A DNA stretch of 64,000 bases, taken from assembly GCF_038446525.1 (NCBI RefSeq), contig NZ_CP151792.1, positions 310,001-374,000 of the forward strand. Reading direction: 5' to 3'. Positions 21,135 to 30,430 of the stretch are shown piece by piece. Source of the DNA: Methanolobus sp. ZRKC5. Its GTDB lineage: Archaea; Halobacteriota; Methanosarcinia; Methanosarcinales; Methanosarcinaceae. How positions within the stretch are numbered: the first letter of the stretch is position 1; each line of letters begins with the position of its first letter. Both the position numbers and the translations under genes were made by a program. Under the pieces are notes generated by a model. The model did not search any database. It was not told the DNA's origin and worked only from the letters and a program-made list of their open reading frames with translations.

Positions 21135-21530
21135 TTAGAGCAGCTCCGATACCTTAGACAAAAATTCCTTAACCTGTGCAGGGTCAAGGTCAAGATCCTT
21201 GTTCTTTTTGATATCCAGATCAGTTAGAAGTATGTGTTTTCCAATTGGAATACCTGCTTCTTCCATTGTTGCTTGTGCACAGTTAAGAGGGCAACCATCG
21301 ATGACAATGATGGACTCGCAGCCTTCTGCAGACTTAACAAGACCGTTTACTTTGCCACCGACCCCTACAGTACACATCATATTACCAACGCCCTGCTTGT
21401 GTAATTCAACTGCAACGGCATTGCTTAACTGACCAACATTAGATGCACCGGCACATGGGAATATTCCTACAATGGAAGCGCCACATGAACACTTTGCATT
21501 CTCAGACATAGGTATTACTGTGTTATCCAT
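21135..21530 (-). CDS. DGC domain putative zinc-binding protein
   Basis: 131 residues with the family's DGC motif in VIDGCPLNCAQATME and other conserved Cys (KCSCGASIVGIFPCAGASNVG, MMCTVGVGG). The DGC family is predicted to bind metal through these Cys. It is the last gene of a five-gene minus-strand operon and overlaps the thioredoxin-like gene by 16 bases. The alternative start MSENAKCS lies seven codons in. Confidence 0.88.
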   Translation of the reverse strand: MDNTVIPMSENAKCSCGASIVGIFPCAGASNVGQLSNAVAVELHKQGVGNMMCTVGVGGKVNGLVKSAEGCESIIVIDGCPLNCAQATMEEAGIPIGKHILLTDLDIKKNKDLDLDPAQVKEFLSKVSELL

Positions 21531-21748
21531 TCAATAACCTCATTCACCTTTGGTACCCTGCCAACGATCTTTACATCGCCGTCTACAACGACAGCAGGAG
21601 TAATTAGCACACCATATGCAAGTATACCATCCATATCCTCAACCTTCACTATCTCAGCATCAACACCTGCTTGCTCAACAGCCTGTTCAACGAACTTCTT
21701 TGTCTTGTTGCATTTAGGACAACCAGTACCTAATATCTCTATTTTCAT
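21515..21748 (-). CDS. small thioredoxin-like protein
   Basis: 77 residues with a GTGCPKCNK redox site (CPKC) and cis-Pro in LITPAVVVDG. The compact form matches archaeal MTH895-like thioredoxins (redox_disulf_2), often linked to metal or arsenic permeases. Here too it is in one operon with a permease. Confidence 0.92.
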   Translation of the reverse strand: MKIEILGTGCPKCNKTKKFVEQAVEQAGVDAEIVKVEDMDGILAYGVLITPAVVVDGDVKIVGRVPKVNEVIEWITQ

Positions 21749-21765: not shown

Positions 21766-21948
21766 TTAAATAATCACGTTTATAGCGTGAAAGTCGCAGG
21801 ATCTCACACAATCAATACAATACTTGCACAGACTCGGCCTTGCCGGAAAACATATCCCATCCTTTAGTTCAAGGACATCATTCTGACACGCATCCACACA
21901 TGAACCACAGCCAGTACATTTGTCACCTTTAACAGTAATGAGCACCAT
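21766..21948 (-). CDS. 4Fe-4S ferredoxin
   Basis: 60 residues with two cluster motifs: CTGCGSCVDACQ (standard CxxCxxCxxxC) and CKYCIDCVRSC with a terminal CDFH-type ligand set. It lacks the common CP, so cluster II may be unusual. Lies 17 bases upstream of the thioredoxin gene; likely electron carrier for it. Confidence 0.9.
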   Translation of the reverse strand: MVLITVKGDKCTGCGSCVDACQNDVLELKDGICFPARPSLCKYCIDCVRSCDFHAINVII

Positions 21949-21980: not shown

Positions 21981-22670
21981 TCAGTACCCTCTCTTTAATA
22001 TTGTTATCAGTTCGTCAGGATTGGGCATGTTCTCCTGTATTTTATTACAGGTAGTCTCTACGTCATAATCACAACGTATGATCTCAGCTTTTGAACTGGT
22101 AGTATCGAACACCGCACAACTTGCCCGCCAGTCACCATCTCTGGGCTGACCTGTAGAACCTGGGTTTATTATTAGCATATCTTTGAATTTTTTGATAAAG
22201 GGAATATGTGAATGACCTATACATAGAACATCTGCGTCAATCTCAGATACCATTTCTTCCAGATCTGACTCTGATGTCTCCGGCTTCATGTATTCATAAT
22301 TGGATCTTGGACTTCCATGTGTGAAGTACAGCCTCATTCCATCTATCATTTTCTCAATACTGAAAGGAAGCTGGCGAAGGAACGCCATTTGTACTTCTGT
22401 TGTCATATTCCAGGTGTAGTCCCTGGTAGCAACTGAAAGGTGTTTATACTTATAGCCGCATCCACACTCCATTTTGGAACCTACGGCAGCATCGTGATTA
22501 CCAAGAACTGTTTCGATTTCCTGCTGCATGATAAGATCGATGCACTCAGATGGAGAGGGACCATAGTCCGCAAGGTCACCAAGGCAAATGACCATGTCAT
22601 GGGGAATTTTCAACACTGCATCCAAAGCTTCTTTATTGCCATGGATATCTGATATCAGCAGTATTCTCAT
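21981..22670 (-). CDS. calcineurin-like metallophosphoesterase
   Basis: 229 residues. Metal motifs are ISDIHGN, CLGDLADYGP, LGNHDAA, FTHGSP and IGHSHIPF, all intact. A Cys trio in MECGCGYKYKH is extra. It shares a transcript with the permease (42 bases downstream of its stop) and the ferredoxin. Substrate unknown. Confidence 0.9.
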   Translation of the reverse strand: MRILLISDIHGNKEALDAVLKIPHDMVICLGDLADYGPSPSECIDLIMQQEIETVLGNHDAAVGSKMECGCGYKYKHLSVATRDYTWNMTTEVQMAFLRQLPFSIEKMIDGMRLYFTHGSPRSNYEYMKPETSESDLEEMVSEIDADVLCIGHSHIPFIKKFKDMLIINPGSTGQPRDGDWRASCAVFDTTSSKAEIIRCDYDVETTCNKIQENMPNPDELITILKRGY

Positions 22671-22712: not shown

Positions 22713-23753
22713 TCATATAAAGTACGTTCCAAACACATATCCTGATATCGTGGCAATTACAACAACAAGCGAAATGTATGTCATACCCTTCTGAAGACCC
22801 ATGATCCTGCTTATCACGATCATATTAGGCAAACTCAAAGCCGGGCCTGCCAGCAGCATGGATAATGCAGGACCTTTTCCCATACCCAGAAGTGTGAGTG
22901 CACTTATTATAGGCACCTCTGTCAATGTTGAGAAATACATCAGGGCTGCAGCAACAGATGCAATTATATACGAAGTGAAAGTGCTTCCTCCCACATATTT
23001 AACGACATATGCTGCAGGAAGGAGTTCAACCATGATACCTGCAAAGAATACACCGATCAGCAGAAGTGGAGTTATCTGCTTCACAAGGAACCAGGTTTCA
23101 CTCATCCAGCTTTCAAGTTCATCCTTACTGAACCACTTGAGAGATACATATACAGTAACAAGTATCAATGGAATTTCCACAAAAAGCATGGGATTCCATG
23201 TAGGTAGTATCTCCGGCGTTACAAGTATTGCCAGAAGCAAAAGGAAAAGCCAGACTGTGTGAGCATGTTTTTCATCACCGAAAGTCTGAATGCTCTTTCT
23301 TTCAATGTTCTTTTTCTCGTATATGAACGCCATCATAATTCCGATAAACACTGAAAGAAGGATTGCTATGATTGCCCTTGCAACTCCAAGATCATAACCC
23401 AATATCTTAGCTGTGTAAACAATAGCAAGAATATTGATAGCAGGAGCTGAGAACAGGAACGTGGTGGCCGGACCAATTCCTGCACCTCTTTTATAGATAC
23501 CTGCAAAAAGAGGCAGGACAGTACAGCTGCATACTGCAAGAAGACAGCCGGAAACAGCTGCAACGGTATAGGAAACATATTTTGGTGCATCGGCCCCGAA
23601 GAATTTCAGGACTGACTCTTTGGAAAAGAGCGATGCTATAGCTCCTGCCAGGAAAAAGGCAGGTATCAGGCACATGAGCACATGCAATGCAAGATACTCC
23701 TGAAGTGACGCAATGCCAACGTAAGCCAGATCAATGAGATTAGAAGTCATCAT
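22713..23753 (-). CDS. SO_0444/DUF318-type metal permease
   Basis: 346-residue membrane protein with about 8-10 spans in two homologous halves. It has the DUF318 permease signature SGCLLAVCSCTVLPLFAGIY and, in the second half, TEVPIISALTLLGMGKGPAL. Relatives (SO_0444 group, ArsP) are linked to Cu/Zn or arsenical efflux. An ORF extends 14 codons further upstream, but ATG 23753 lies about 25 bases after TATAAATA, the position of a leaderless start. First gene of the redox operon. Confidence 0.87.
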   Translation of the reverse strand: MMTSNLIDLAYVGIASLQEYLALHVLMCLIPAFFLAGAIASLFSKESVLKFFGADAPKYVSYTVAAVSGCLLAVCSCTVLPLFAGIYKRGAGIGPATTFLFSAPAINILAIVYTAKILGYDLGVARAIIAILLSVFIGIMMAFIYEKKNIERKSIQTFGDEKHAHTVWLFLLLLAILVTPEILPTWNPMLFVEIPLILVTVYVSLKWFSKDELESWMSETWFLVKQITPLLLIGVFFAGIMVELLPAAYVVKYVGGSTFTSYIIASVAAALMYFSTLTEVPIISALTLLGMGKGPALSMLLAGPALSLPNMIVISRIMGLQKGMTYISLVVVIATISGYVFGTYFI

Positions 23754-23808
23754 TTCAAATAATGTTGAAATACTATTTATAGCTAGTGGTTTCAAATATT
23801 TTTGAAAT
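23752..23808 (-). promoter_or_regulatory. leaderless promoter bracketed by two palindromic operators
   Basis: Two near-identical dyads, ATTTCAAATAATGTTGAAAT (23752-23771) and GTTTCAAATATTTTTGAAAT (23789-23808), are 37 bases apart. Between them, on the minus strand, is TATAAATA (23774-23781), about 25 bases before ATG 23753. The first dyad covers the expected transcription start and the second the BRE side. TTCAA-n-TTGAA dyads are typical of ArsR/SmtB-type repressors. The regulator is not encoded next to the operon. Confidence 0.7.
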
Positions 23809-24061: not shown

Positions 24062-27000
24062 ATGGCTACTAAAATAGCCAGAATGTGTTGTGTTTATCAC
24101 AAAAAAGCTCTTCAGCTATTTGTACTATGCACAATTATGCTACTGATAGGATCAAGCACTTATCCAGCGTTAGCTGCATCTAGCAATGATGACTTTTTTA
24201 ATTCAACTATTGAATCAAAAACTATAACGCCCTCTGATATCTCTGCTTTAAAAACCGTGGCTCAATCTATTGCCTTTGCCAACCAGCATGATCCCGGAAT
24301 AGATATCGATAATTTAATGGCTGCGATACCAAACAATTCAAGTGACGCACAAAATAATGAAAGCTTTTCAGGACCTAAACCGCTCACAACTGATTTTTCA
24401 GATATTGACCCAAACCAGGCAAAATATGGTCCAGACAACGATGGTGACGGTATCCCTGACTCTGTAGAACTGGTTCTGGGAACTGATATTAATAATACTG
24501 ATTCCGATTTTGACCAATTGGACGACCTTTTTGAGGTAAACAACGACCTTGATCCCTTGAAAGCAGATTCTAACGATGATGGACTTGCTGATTATTTTGA
24601 GGTTCATAATGTTTCTTCCTTAGACATAGATGGCGACGGTTTTGCAAACGCATGGGACCTTGATAATGACAATGATGGAGTAATTGATGCTCTGGACATC
24701 TCGCCTTTTTCAAAATCCATGTCAAATGAGAGCTTTGATTTCAATATTAAATCAAGTGGAAATCCCACCTATCTGAATTTTCAGATAAGACCTGATAATC
24801 CGGAGCATCTTAACCTGATTGCACAAAGCTGGGATTGGCCCGATGACTATCGGTCAACGATGAAAGACCTCAACAGTTCGGAAAATGATGTTACTGTCAC
24901 ACCAATGCTCGAACTCACCGTACCTGTCGACTGTAAAATTGTTTCTCGTGATAGTGGGGATTGCATAGAAATCCACAATGCCAGTCAAGATAATACGGTA
25001 AATGTCACTACGGGAAATTATAGTGGTGAAGACTACCAGTTGTGGAGACTGGAATCTACAGATGATAATTACTACAAAATAATTTCCATGAACAATAGCA
25101 AATGCCTTGAAGTTTCCAATGCCAGCCAGGATGAGATGGCAAATGTTACTGTAGGCAATTACACCGGTGAGGAACACCAGCTCTGGGAACTGGAACTGGA
25201 TAACGATGGGCTCTACAAACTTATAGCCAAACACAGTGGAAAATGCCTTGAAGTAAATCCCACAATTAATGGTAGTATATTCCAGAACTCATGTCAGGAA
25301 ACTGACCAACAACTCTGGGAAATCGAACTTGTAGGCGGAATTGCATCTGATCGTGACGCACTTGAAGATTACGGAATCGTCACAACATTGGGCAAGGCCT
25401 ATGTCCCTCTCTCTCCTGTGAAAGACTTTGGAAATATCGTTGCTCTGAACGGTCGTATGTTCTATCCGCAGGATTTGGCAATGGACACTTTCACCCAGTC
25501 ACAACTTGTGTGGATGGTCAGAGGACTGACGGACAGACCAAAGAAAATGTCATTACAAGCCTATAAAGGTCAATATGTGTCAGTGGATAACGCAACATCA
25601 AAACTTGTTGCCAGAAGCACCGCTGTCACAAGTGATGAGATGTTTGAAATTGTTTATCTCACCAACACTAAAGTTGCGTTGAAAGCACCTAATGGTAAAT
25701 ACGTATACGCAGCAGAAGGCGGTGGGAAAGGACTGATAGCAGACAGCACTGAGATTGGTGAATGGGAGATATTTAATCTTTTAGACCTTGAAAATGAAAA
25801 TAGTATGATAGCTTTGAAAGCTAATAATGATCAGTATGTCTCTTCAGAAGGTGGGGGAGGAGCTGAACTTGTTTCCAACAGAGATGAAAGGAAAGAATGG
25901 GAATCATTTACCCTGATTACCACTGAATATGAATCTGTGCCAACCACATTGGCAAAATATAATGAAAATTTCATGCTCACCGGTTTTAGTGTTGAAGAAA
26001 ACCATGGTTCAGATTTCGGGGTATTCTTCAGTGAAGATAAGAACCGCACATTTGAAGCAGGCTTTGTCCTTTCGTATGCGTATTTACGAGAACAGACCGC
26101 TCTTGACCAGATGCCTCAGAAATTGCAGAACGATTATAATGTGACAATTAGTTCGGACATAGGTTTTGCCAGTCATCAGGACGAGGCCCTGGCAAGCATA
26201 ACAACTGAAATGACGCCTGATGCATTGTCTTCCTTACCAGTCGATATGATCCTTCCTATAATTGGTGTGTTTGAAGATGATTTCCGATACAGGGCAATGG
26301 ATGACCTGGCTTTCAGTTCATATGTTACAGGAACGAGTTTTGATATCGACCTGAATGACCAGCCTTTGATAACTACAAAAAGCATGAAGATGAGCTGGTA
26401 CAATACCAGTACGAATACAACTATCGGAACAGAAGACATGCTGAATGAGGTTCAGCAATGGGGACTGTCCAGAGGTCTTGACAGTGAAACACTTGCAACA
26501 ATGATGAATTTGATGATCGCCTGGGAGACTGGAGAATCAACTGTTACTAAATCAGGTGACGTTGAAACAAAGTTCAATTTCCCTGAAGGAAATCAGGTCC
26601 TTGATACTATCGACAGTTATGGAATATCGGCAGTTAGCTTCATTTGTAATCTCATTATAGGGGGAGCCGCAGTCTACTCTTTCATCACTTTTACCAAACT
26701 TGAACCACTCGCAAAGATAGCTGGTCAGACAAACTGGAAACTTATGAAGGCAATGACCGAATCGGTCTCAAAAATACGCACTGGTGTCGTGGGGTTGGCT
26801 AACAGGCTCACCAGCATCCTTTCAACTATTGGATGGATTGTTGTAGGTGTGCTCGCCTTCTATGCATTCTGGTCAATAGCCGCTAGCGAAGGTTGGTCTG
26901 GATACGGTATATTCGTAGGAACTTTGTATGCCACATTGATGATAGCATACGCAGTTGCCCTTTGGGCTATAGCCTTGATACCTGTGGTTGGGTGGGCTAT

Positions 27001-30000
27001 TGCATTGCTTATTGTTCTTTCAGACCTTATTGTAGGCTGGATATTTGGCAAAGGCTGGTCTCAGATGTTCTTTGAGTGGCTTATAGGACTTTTCACAGAT
27101 GTAAGGGTTAAAACAGAAGCGGACCTGAAAATGCTAGATACCTCCATAAGCGTGAATGATCAGACCTACAATGGACTAACTGAAGGTGACCGTATAGAAC
27201 TGGAGAGTAACTTTAAAGGCATCATTACAAGAACTTCTCGCGGTTCATTTACAAATCTCCAGAATAGCTATATTAGCCCTCAATACAAGTACATTTCATC
27301 GAACACACTTGCAAGTGATAGTTCCACTACCAAAGGCACAACTGCTTATTCTGGCAATTCACGGAAGGAAACTGAATATAAGGCAAATCTGTGGGTTCAG
27401 CCTGAAGCTGCCATTAACTTCCCATTCGAATTCTGGCTTAGTACTAACTATAGAGTTTACTACGATAAATGCTGGTGGCTCTTTGGATGGCATTGCAGTC
27501 AGAAGAGCAACACAGGCACTGCGGATGCAGACCCATCTACACTCTACTTTGATGTGATGCCAAATGATATCGAAAATTTTTCCCTCTGGACTGCTATTAA
27601 CTCTAATGACATTGACGGGGATGACATCCTTAATCCTGACGAACTGCTCAATGGTACCAGTCAATTGAGATGGGATACTGACAACGATGGTCTTTCCGAT
27701 GGGTATGAAATAGAATATGGAACCATACCTGTTAACAAAGATACCGATGGAGACGGACTTGAAGACGGACTTGAACTACGCTACGGTTATGATCCCCTTA
27801 AATGGGATACTGATGGTGACAAACTCAATGACTTTGAAGAACATCGTGGCTGGGATATCGAATTTGAGTTCTACGATGAGACATTTGAGCAGCATGTCTG
27901 GGCAAGCCCTCTAAATAATGATTCTGACGATGACGGTTTGAATGATCTTAATGAATTCCTCAAAGGATTAAACCCTCGCTCTAAGGATACGAACGGCAAC
28001 GGTATTGAGGATGCCTACGACCTCAATTTCACATCAAAAGCATACGTAAGCAACGTTGACCTGAATGGTATGGGCAGTAGCATTATAACCGATCCTGGAA
28101 CAAATATCACAGCAGTTATCGATTACAGCATAATTGGAAAGGAAAACTCTACTGGTGAACCCTCAAGATGCTGGTTGTTCGCAAGTATGGACAATTCTAC
28201 ATTAAATGAAGAAATATACAATGGTACACCTGAAATAGGCAATGAAACTTTGGGGTCTGCAAGTTTGCAGTTCAATGCTTCAAACAACACTGACATCTTT
28301 GAATTGCGCTTTTACCAGACATGGAACGCATCCATGCCAGCACCCGCTGAAGAGGATAGGGATATCATCGGAATCATTGATACCACCTATTACCCTGTCA
28401 GGGATAATGGCTGGGTAAGTTCTGGAGCGGATGAAGACAAGGATGGCCTTATAGATATAAATGAACAGATAGGCTGGCCTATAACCATTACCAATCTTTC
28501 AGGTACACACACTGTCCACGTAAGCAGCGATCCGCGATTCAAGGATAGTGATTTTGACGGACTGGATGACCATACCGAGTGCTATCTTACGACAAGCAGC
28601 AGTTCAGATCCCGAAAACTCAGACACCGACAACGATAATCTAAATGATTTTACGGAATATTATCTTGGCACCAACCTGACAAATTATGATACCGATGGAG
28701 ACCTGCTGGATGATAGTACAGAAATATTCTTTGGAAGCAGTCCATTAATGCCGGACACAGATGGCGATGGCCTGTATGATTCAATCGAGTTTAATCTTTC
28801 ATCAAACCCGTTGAAGATAGATACAGACGACGATGACCTGACAGATTTTGAGGAAACTATATTTGGTTCAAACCTGCTTAAACCGGATTCTGATGATGAT
28901 GGTCTGTTTGACTATCTCGAAATGATCTACGGCTCAAAGCCACTTGTACCGGATACTGACGAAGATGGCCTGCTTGATGGTGATGAGGTACATGGTACAG
29001 GAACCAGTCCTTTGTTAAATGATACAGACTTTGATGGTTTGAAGGATCCTGAAGAATTGGAAATGAATACAAATCCACTTTCTCCAGATACTGATAATGA
29101 CGGATACACAGATTCACAGGAAATAAGTTTTGCTACAAATCCACTGCTGGAAGATACCGACAGCGATAATCTTAATGATTCACTTGATATGGATTCTGTT
29201 ATATCAAATGTCAGGAATATTGCAGTTGCATATGATATGAGCGAGGATAATGAAGAACTGCTGGATACTTTGAGCAAGTATACCAATATAACTGTTTATT
29301 CTGCAGATGACCTTTTAATGAACCATTCAGATGAACCATATATTCTGCTCCTTGGCAGACCTGAGAAAATGAATGGGACAGCCGGCAATATTACATACGA
29401 TGTGCTCAGGAACGATGGTGATGTACTTCCAAAAATGATCGATTCTGTTTATGAGAGGATAGCTGTCAGATATGGTGTGTGGAATACAACACAAACTGTT
29501 GTCATGCTTTCTGAACCATACATGTATGATCATTGCAGGATACTGGATGCTTTCAGGACTAAGCAGGTCACTGCTTCCAGCAATTCGATTCTGGTAGAAT
29601 ACAAGGCAGAAAAGGATCTTTTTGTTGTTGAGTCCATTGATTCTGTAAAAAGGACAGGTTCAAAGATTGGTGTGGTTCTTGATGCCAATGTCACCCCATG
29701 GATTGAGCTAAAACGATCCGGTTCTTCAGAAAAACCATTGTCCTCTGGCTCAGGACTTCCTTCCGGAGAATATGTTATTGGAAAGTATCTTGACATAACA
29801 GTGAGTGAAAATGTAGAAAACGCAACCACCGATATCATTAACGGTACTTTGTTGACAATCTATTATCGCTTCAGCGACCTAGACCGCAACGGTGACGGTG
29901 ACATCGTTGACAGAAATGACATTGATGAGGATACCCTGTGCATCTATTACCTGAATGAAGTAAATGGCAGGTGGACTAAACTCTCAGATTCAGGAGTAAA

Positions 30001-30430
30001 CACCGGCAATGTTGGACTCTATGGTGAGAATTTTGAAGGCTATGTATGGACAAGAGTTTCACATCTCTCCAGTTTTGCCCTCGCGGGAAGGTCTGTCACA
30101 ATAGAAGATGACGGTCCCCTTGACTCTGATCTGGATGGGTTGTCTAATGCGGTAGAGTACAGAATCGGAACTGACCCATTTAACCCTGATACCGATGGTG
30201 ATGGTATCATCGATTCAGAAGATGCCGAGCCACTGACAAAGTTCAGAACAGTCCAGGAGGATGCTGATACCAATATTGAGACTCCGCCTAAAGAAACTAA
30301 AATATACCCTGTTCCACATGAAACTCCTTTGACTAAAAACAAAACTATACCGGGATATTTGATGTGGCTGGCATTTGTGGGTATTATAGCCTTATTGTCA
30401 TATCTGATCGTTTTAAAAAGAAAAGAATGA
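24062..30430 (+). CDS. giant surface protein with TSP3 repeats, ricin-type and fascin-like domains
   Basis: 2122 residues. Signal peptide about 18-40. Order by rough residue: TSP3 Ca-binding repeats (DNDGDGIPD) 120-220; ricin B-type beta-trefoil with repeated QLW motifs 285-425; fascin-like repeats (LKANNDQYVSSEGGGG) 490-620; unknown 620-850; several hydrophobic segments 855-1000; TSP3 1180-1320; a long TSP3 ladder 1455-1710; a unique domain 1717-2010; a last TSP3 repeat 2020-2055; a C-terminal TM 2098-2118 with KRKE. Probably Ca-stabilised and cell-surface; the hydrophobic middle suggests membrane insertion or pore formation, which is inference. GGGGGTT lies upstream of ATG 24062. Confidence 0.87.
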   Translation: MATKIARMCCVYHKKALQLFVLCTIMLLIGSSTYPALAASSNDDFFNSTIESKTITPSDISALKTVAQSIAFANQHDPGIDIDNLMAAIPNNSSDAQNNESFSGPKPLTTDFSDIDPNQAKYGPDNDGDGIPDSVELVLGTDINNTDSDFDQLDDLFEVNNDLDPLKADSNDDGLADYFEVHNVSSLDIDGDGFANAWDLDNDNDGVIDALDISPFSKSMSNESFDFNIKSSGNPTYLNFQIRPDNPEHLNLIAQSWDWPDDYRSTMKDLNSSENDVTVTPMLELTVPVDCKIVSRDSGDCIEIHNASQDNTVNVTTGNYSGEDYQLWRLESTDDNYYKIISMNNSKCLEVSNASQDEMANVTVGNYTGEEHQLWELELDNDGLYKLIAKHSGKCLEVNPTINGSIFQNSCQETDQQLWEIELVGGIASDRDALEDYGIVTTLGKAYVPLSPVKDFGNIVALNGRMFYPQDLAMDTFTQSQLVWMVRGLTDRPKKMSLQAYKGQYVSVDNATSKLVARSTAVTSDEMFEIVYLTNTKVALKAPNGKYVYAAEGGGKGLIADSTEIGEWEIFNLLDLENENSMIALKANNDQYVSSEGGGGAELVSNRDERKEWESFTLITTEYESVPTTLAKYNENFMLTGFSVEENHGSDFGVFFSEDKNRTFEAGFVLSYAYLREQTALDQMPQKLQNDYNVTISSDIGFASHQDEALASITTEMTPDALSSLPVDMILPIIGVFEDDFRYRAMDDLAFSSYVTGTSFDIDLNDQPLITTKSMKMSWYNTSTNTTIGTEDMLNEVQQWGLSRGLDSETLATMMNLMIAWETGESTVTKSGDVETKFNFPEGNQVLDTIDSYGISAVSFICNLIIGGAAVYSFITFTKLEPLAKIAGQTNWKLMKAMTESVSKIRTGVVGLANRLTSILSTIGWIVVGVLAFYAFWSIAASEGWSGYGIFVGTLYATLMIAYAVALWAIALIPVVGWAIALLIVLSDLIVGWIFGKGWSQMFFEWLIGLFTDVRVKTEADLKMLDTSISVNDQTYNGLTEGDRIELESNFKGIITRTSRGSFTNLQNSYISPQYKYISSNTLASDSSTTKGTTAYSGNSRKETEYKANLWVQPEAAINFPFEFWLSTNYRVYYDKCWWLFGWHCSQKSNTGTADADPSTLYFDVMPNDIENFSLWTAINSNDIDGDDILNPDELLNGTSQLRWDTDNDGLSDGYEIEYGTIPVNKDTDGDGLEDGLELRYGYDPLKWDTDGDKLNDFEEHRGWDIEFEFYDETFEQHVWASPLNNDSDDDGLNDLNEFLKGLNPRSKDTNGNGIEDAYDLNFTSKAYVSNVDLNGMGSSIITDPGTNITAVIDYSIIGKENSTGEPSRCWLFASMDNSTLNEEIYNGTPEIGNETLGSASLQFNASNNTDIFELRFYQTWNASMPAPAEEDRDIIGIIDTTYYPVRDNGWVSSGADEDKDGLIDINEQIGWPITITNLSGTHTVHVSSDPRFKDSDFDGLDDHTECYLTTSSSSDPENSDTDNDNLNDFTEYYLGTNLTNYDTDGDLLDDSTEIFFGSSPLMPDTDGDGLYDSIEFNLSSNPLKIDTDDDDLTDFEETIFGSNLLKPDSDDDGLFDYLEMIYGSKPLVPDTDEDGLLDGDEVHGTGTSPLLNDTDFDGLKDPEELEMNTNPLSPDTDNDGYTDSQEISFATNPLLEDTDSDNLNDSLDMDSVISNVRNIAVAYDMSEDNEELLDTLSKYTNITVYSADDLLMNHSDEPYILLLGRPEKMNGTAGNITYDVLRNDGDVLPKMIDSVYERIAVRYGVWNTTQTVVMLSEPYMYDHCRILDAFRTKQVTASSNSILVEYKAEKDLFVVESIDSVKRTGSKIGVVLDANVTPWIELKRSGSSEKPLSSGSGLPSGEYVIGKYLDITVSENVENATTDIINGTLLTIYYRFSDLDRNGDGDIVDRNDIDEDTLCIYYLNEVNGRWTKLSDSGVNTGNVGLYGENFEGYVWTRVSHLSSFALAGRSVTIEDDGPLDSDLDGLSNAVEYRIGTDPFNPDTDGDGIIDSEDAEPLTKFRTVQEDADTNIETPPKETKIYPVPHETPLTKNKTIPGYLMWLAFVGIIALLSYLIVLKRKE

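Follow-up and report, generated by a model that had tools for sequence, protein, structure and literature searches.

Twin dyads around the TATA box of arsP promoters in methanogens and ANME archaea, predicted operators of an ArsR-type repressor

The control of ars genes by ArsR/SmtB proteins, and the control of several arsenic promoters by one repressor, are already known. In Thermus thermophilus, a single ArsR/SmtB repressor, TtSmtB, acts on the promoters of arsenite efflux, arsenate reductase and arsM genes (PMC8649762), and ArsP of Campylobacter is an exporter of trivalent methyl arsenicals (PMC6205960). In methanogens, the boxes of MsvR lie beside the BRE/TATA, exclusion of TBP/TFB has been proposed or shown, and a near-leaderless transcript is described in Methanosarcina (PMC3729527). 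The locus described here resembles the bacterial ars operons of the ArsR/SmtB family (ArsR, SmtB, CzrA) in its candidate regulator, an HTH_5 protein whose sensor helix contains CxC, in an inverted-repeat operator over the core promoter, in its Acr3, ArsP and ArsM targets, and in putative autoregulation in some lineages, but differs from them in having two dyads around an archaeal BRE/TATA and a putative repressor gene that is unlinked in this genome. TtSmtB acts at a bacterial promoter through GAAC(N14)CTTG, an operator of other sequence and geometry (PMC8649762), whereas MsvR is a V4R-domain redox protein that recognizes TTCGN7-9CGAA in a context of oxidative stress (PMC3729527). Boxes of the latter type were not matched, the dyads here being TTTCAA-N6-TTGAAA. 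The TTGAAA motifs of delta-proteobacteria are Fur and sigma-32 sites. In the literature searched, mostly without subscription papers, there was no description of this operator, of a Methanosarcina ArsR operator or, for these archaea, of an arsenic regulon under ArsR, which is weak evidence of the operator's novelty.

The arsP operon and its promoter

The window, which is the whole stretch of 64 kb that was analysed (G000:C1:310001-374000 of a single-contig genome of 3.05 Mb), contains an operon of which all five functions named in the first-pass annotation were confirmed by domain searches. The promoter and operon consist of the following features:

23790..23807, strand not assigned: distal putative operator dyad TTTCAAATATTTTTGAAA (minus strand: TTTCAAAAATATTTGAAA), immediately upstream of the BRE; conserved in orthologues
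23774..23789, minus: BRE region and TATA box TATAAATA (TATA 23781-23774), assigned from sequence and from the TATA-like box between the dyads of orthologues
23753..23770, strand not assigned: proximal putative operator dyad TTTCAAATAATGTTGAAA, predicted to span about -19 to the transcription start; conserved in orthologues
22713..23750, minus: ArsP_1 permease (PF03773, 266.5 bits); start ATG at 23750 from relatives, alternative ATG at 23753
21981..22670, minus: calcineurin-like phosphoesterase (YfcE subfamily; metallophosphoesterase), by domain search
21766..21948, minus: small 4Fe-4S ferredoxin, by domain search
21515..21748, minus: MTH895/ArsE family thioredoxin-like protein (TIGR00412, 105 bits, cut-off 62)
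21135..21530, minus: DGC-domain protein (PF08859), by domain search; 16-base overlap with the thioredoxin gene

The ArsP_1 domain by which ArsP organoarsenical permeases are recognized is present in the permease, whose closest relatives are those of Methanolobus. The CuZnOut_SO0444 and SaoE models of NCBIfam score below cut-off and the protein fits no equivalog, so an arsenical is only a putative substrate. Divergent from the operon is a gene (24062-30430) whose 2122-aa product contains ricin-type lectin, fascin-like and TSP3 repeats, and a gene resembling it also flanks arsP at loci L053 and L054.

The two dyads, which are exact and start 37 bp apart, the distance given in the first-pass annotation, occur nowhere else in the window by pattern search, and exact dyads number only 7 in the whole 3.05-Mb genome. 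Dinucleotide shuffles of the window contained a mean of 0.02 dyads, and none of 100 shuffles contained two. The dyad core is 18 bp, and the length of 20 bp given earlier is reached when the first dyad's outer A/T is counted. A pattern with an 8-base spacer misses both dyads, the true spacer being 6 bases. On the minus strand, the distal dyad (23807-23790) is followed after 8 bp by TATAAATA (23781-23774) and after 3 bp more by the proximal dyad (23770-23753) and the ATG, reading TTTCAAAAATATTTGAAA - ccactagc - TATAAATA - gta - TTTCAACATTATTTGAAA - tgATGACT. The first ATG (23753) is 20 nt downstream of the TATA box and the second (23750), the one aligning with relatives, 23 nt downstream. With the ATG at 23750 this close to the TATA box, a leaderless or near-leaderless start of arsP is plausible in this genome.

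Conservation of the dyads and the genes downstream of them

Relatives of the permease (80) were collected by protein similarity alone, and 37 archaeal arsP promoters, this one included, were compared with up to two mismatches allowed in the dyad pair. Twin dyads are present in 34 of the 37, from Methanosarcinaceae, ANME groups and one Methanocellales metagenome-assembled genome. The distal dyad is 8 bp from the TATA-like box in 31 of these 34, the gap between TATA and proximal dyad is 3-6 bp in 32 or more of them, and the dyads are spaced 36-37 or 39-40 bp from start to start. The start codon lies at a variable distance, 17 to 82 nt, from where the proximal dyad starts, and the leaderless design proposed in the first-pass annotation is thus not conserved. 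Since the register of dyads and TATA is fixed and the distance to the start codon is variable, the dyads are, as judged from sequence, DNA operators tied to the core promoter and not message elements. If the TATA is centred at about -27, a scale taken from the mapped Ma msvR promoter (PMC3729527), the distal dyad would cover about -56 to -39, with the proximal one at about -19 to the start.

Within the order, exact twin dyads with a gap of 15-30 bp were found in 48 of 150 genomes, representing 13 of 24 genera, and across the phylum, with a gap of 15-24 bp, in 38 of 393 genomes, of which 3 (G166, G175 and G196) are outside the order; the reversed control gave no match in either case. The recurrence of the dyad pair in related genomes exceeds chance by far.

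A 34-base pattern of the distal dyad plus TATA, with at most one mismatch, has four sites in this genome, where about 0.02 would be expected by a simple combinatorial calculation based on the control. Besides the arsP operon, these are:

2590956: FmdE and TauE/SafE genes
3001912: hydantoinase-like gene divergent from the gene of a 98-aa protein
3050278: TauE/SafE gene, with a second dyad (one mismatch) 45 bp off

Some targets in this genome have the distal dyad only. At three mismatches the pattern has 11 matches against 7 in reversed controls, which limits trust to near-exact sites; a loose genome scan for the dyad at two mismatches gave hundreds of matches and was uninformative. No clear dyad was found at this genome's acr3 (2258328), which has a degenerate one at best, or at its ArsR-ArsM fusion gene (1356076). 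The 98-aa protein has dyads in its promoter (L143:5584-5880, near 3001912 here, and L161:1608-1904) and no Pfam match; it aligns to the middle of a Methanosarcina HTH_5 plus Fe-S (PF04060) protein encoded near arsP (L080:2314-3117).

Elsewhere, twin dyads are found upstream of acr3 in L180 (TIGR00832, 380 bits), of a phosphoesterase gene accompanied by an ACR3-type SBF gene in L248, of TauE/SafE in Methanosarcina (L184, L192), of FmdE with a TauE-like gene in G140 (L186), of FmdE in ANME-2c (L083, L152), and of an MFS gene and DUF6951-arsR operons (L169, L173, L176). The TauE proteins of L184, L186 and L192 and the FmdE of L186 were named by eye, from likeness to profile-tested proteins. In L087 and L091, arsM follows arsP and the thioredoxin gene within the operon. 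Among genes for the efflux or conversion of arsenic, the operator precedes ArsP_1 here, and acr3 and arsM-containing operons in relatives.

Several further genes were noted around such sites. In several Methanolobus genomes arsP shares its twin dyads with a divergently oriented gene for a 287-aa SAM methyltransferase (L181:2734-3597, L172:564-1427), ArsM-like with a score below cut-off; this gene is absent at that place in the window. Several DUF6951-like genes are clustered near the two contig-end dyad sites (L145:2135-2515, confirmed by Pfam as DUF6951, and L144:8004-10551; the rest were assigned by eye). An MtrA-family (PF04208) protein (L247:3949-4524) is divergent from arsP across twin dyads, and in L056 and L059 the last gene of the arsP cluster encodes an N-terminus that appears MtrA-like. 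A corrinoid methyl-transfer connection to arsenic is conceivable.

A candidate ArsR repressor

HTH_5 domains were found at 17 places in this genome, and a search for dyads within 1.5 kb of these matches found no autoregulatory site. The first-pass annotation had proposed looking in the genome for further dyads and an ArsR-like gene; beside the seven exact dyads, this genome has the following member of the ArsR clade that is linked to the operator elsewhere:

G000:C1:1376964-1377344 (L188:2965-3348), outside the window, 1 Mb from the operon: candidate class-C ArsR

It is a winged-helix HTH_5 protein (PF01022, 50.2 bits; NF033788, 74.4 bits, cut-off 55) with a Cys pair, ELCVC, in the sensor helix. 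In a tree of 31 sequences it joins the proteins of L092 and G196 (84/87), within a clade of 22 members (support 93/91, the fork being drawn open) that is apart from both the class B proteins of Methanosarcina and the ArsR-ArsM fusion. The clade has LCxC or MCxC throughout, LCxC in nearly all members, and the recognition helix SYHL. Members of the clade are present in 46 of the 48 twin-dyad genomes (Fisher p=1.4e-7, kinship ignored), the exceptions being G010 and G143, and certain genera carry one ArsR sub-class without the other.

Clade genes also adjoin the dyads. ANME-2 arsR genes have their own twin-dyad promoter (L083, L087, L091, L150, L152, L153, L229, L230): in L152, L153, L229 and L230 arsR starts right at a twin-dyad promoter of arsP-like design, and in L087 and L091 the twin dyads lie between arsR and the divergent arsP. 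In Methanolobus relatives a clade ArsR gene lies behind DUF6951 in an operon that diverges from arsP or the MFS gene (L056, L068, L169), and in L092, G166, G175 and G196 a class-C gene is downstream of twin-dyad arsP on the same strand. The regulator gene is thus linked to the operator or putatively autoregulated in ANME-2, G166, G175, G196 and L092 but not, for class C, in this genus: in 21 class-C arsR promoters (this genome and 20 orthologues) the TATA is conserved and no dyad was found, so that in this genus ArsR would be made without this control and would act in trans. The class-A arsR genes of two genera are likewise unlinked and without a dyad. A second permease (L189:2934-4417), of the ArsP_1 superfamily by eye, is encoded directly behind its own ArsR, without a dyad.

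Proposed mechanism and alternatives

The twin dyads are probably operators of a single repressor of this archaeal ArsR clade, derepressed by As(III) or methyl-As(III) and controlling a small regulon of exporters. The comparison shows the sites, their fixed register with the TATA, their recurrence at arsenic genes, and their co-distribution and adjacency with this ArsR clade; that ArsR binds to the dyads and represses, and that its ligand is an arsenical, we infer. When arsenic is absent, the product of G000:C1:1376964-1377344 would act in trans on both dyads, one dimer per dyad, one abutting the BRE and the other over the start site, so that TBP/TFB and RNA polymerase could not assemble. Binding of As(III) or methyl-As(III) at the LCxC cysteines would release the repressor, and ArsP_1, the phosphoesterase, ferredoxin, thioredoxin and DGC protein would be made and would export the arsenical or otherwise deal with it. 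TauE/SafE and FmdE-TauE here, and acr3 and arsR in relatives, would be under the same repressor.

Points against the clade model are that the candidate gene of this genome is unlinked and has no dyad in its promoter, as is also true of the class-A genes of two genera, that G010 and G143 have twin dyads but no clade member, that acr3 of this genome has a degenerate dyad at best, and that another ArsR class (class B) adjoins arsP in Methanosarcina, within the operon in L058, L060, L080, L184 and L185. The same operators might have a different HTH reader, either class B, the HTH plus Fe-S protein, whose L080 gene is preceded by an exact dyad, or the ArsR-ArsM fusion (G000:C1:1356076; L187:3077-4153), a 358-aa protein with HTH_5 and arsenite methyltransferase (NF008823, 311.8 bits) domains; this is considered unlikely. 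The recognition helix of class B is SMHL against SYHL in the candidate clade, and in L072 class B is beside arsP yet no dyad is present. No HTH plus Fe-S protein was recognized by eye among the 17 HTH_5 matches of this genome. The fusion is set aside as the reader because of its distribution, the fusion domain being present in 25 of the 48 twin-dyad genomes (p=0.22, kinship ignored) and its relatives absent from the other 23.

Equally improbable is a switch responding not to arsenic but to sulfur compounds or the redox state (persulfide, sulfite, disulfide stress), with the permease, TauE/SafE and thioredoxin handling sulfur compounds. TauE/SafE and FmdE are not obviously arsenic genes, a point against the ArsR model; TauE/SafE is at dyads both here and in Methanosarcina, the candidate ArsR weakly matches the BigR, TsoR and MsvR models below cut-off, and the lack of an NCBIfam equivalog for the permease would fit as well. 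Against this stand acr3 under or beside dyads, arsM in the operon, LCxC in the clade, and the ArsE-type thioredoxin. Of the stress module and repressor first proposed, the metalloid role is upheld by acr3, ArsM and arsR at or beside twin dyads elsewhere, and the ArsR-type reader with operators bracketing BRE/TATA and start is upheld by comparison, whereas for thiol or H2O2 stress and a thiol-sensitive repressor the positive evidence consists only of the TauE/SafE and thioredoxin genes.

Still less probable is that the dyads are activator sites, at which a factor bound ahead of the BRE would bring in TBP/TFB. The distal dyad directly adjoins the BRE, in a known position of archaeal activators, and the targets with the distal dyad alone would suit such a factor; a protein on the proximal dyad, which spans the start site, would however block polymerase, the TATA boxes are good by themselves, and ArsR proteins are mostly repressors. 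That these AT-rich palindromes adjoining the start codon are leader RNA hairpins or chance repeats can be dismissed, given their fixed distance to the TATA and variable distance to the ATG, their location mostly upstream of the expected start and hence outside the transcript, and the empty reversed controls.

Under the clade ArsR model, the arsenic response of methanogens and ANME archaea, in which few metalloid regulators have been characterized, would have an operator defined by its sequence and a candidate regulator that can be named, and these promoters would be a clean natural case of repression through bracketing of BRE/TATA and start. The motif alone predicts arsenic-response roles for TauE/SafE, FmdE-like, DUF6951 and DGC genes of unknown function, and predicted regulon members are testable in genetically tractable Methanosarcina. 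More tentatively, these TATA-bracketing twin operators, conserved from Methanosarcinaceae to ANME, may belong to an archaeal regulon for arsenic that had gone undescribed, and its TauE/SafE, FmdE-like, DUF6951, DGC and MtrA-like corrinoid proteins might represent new steps by which methanogens and methane oxidisers handle thio- or methyl-arsenic.
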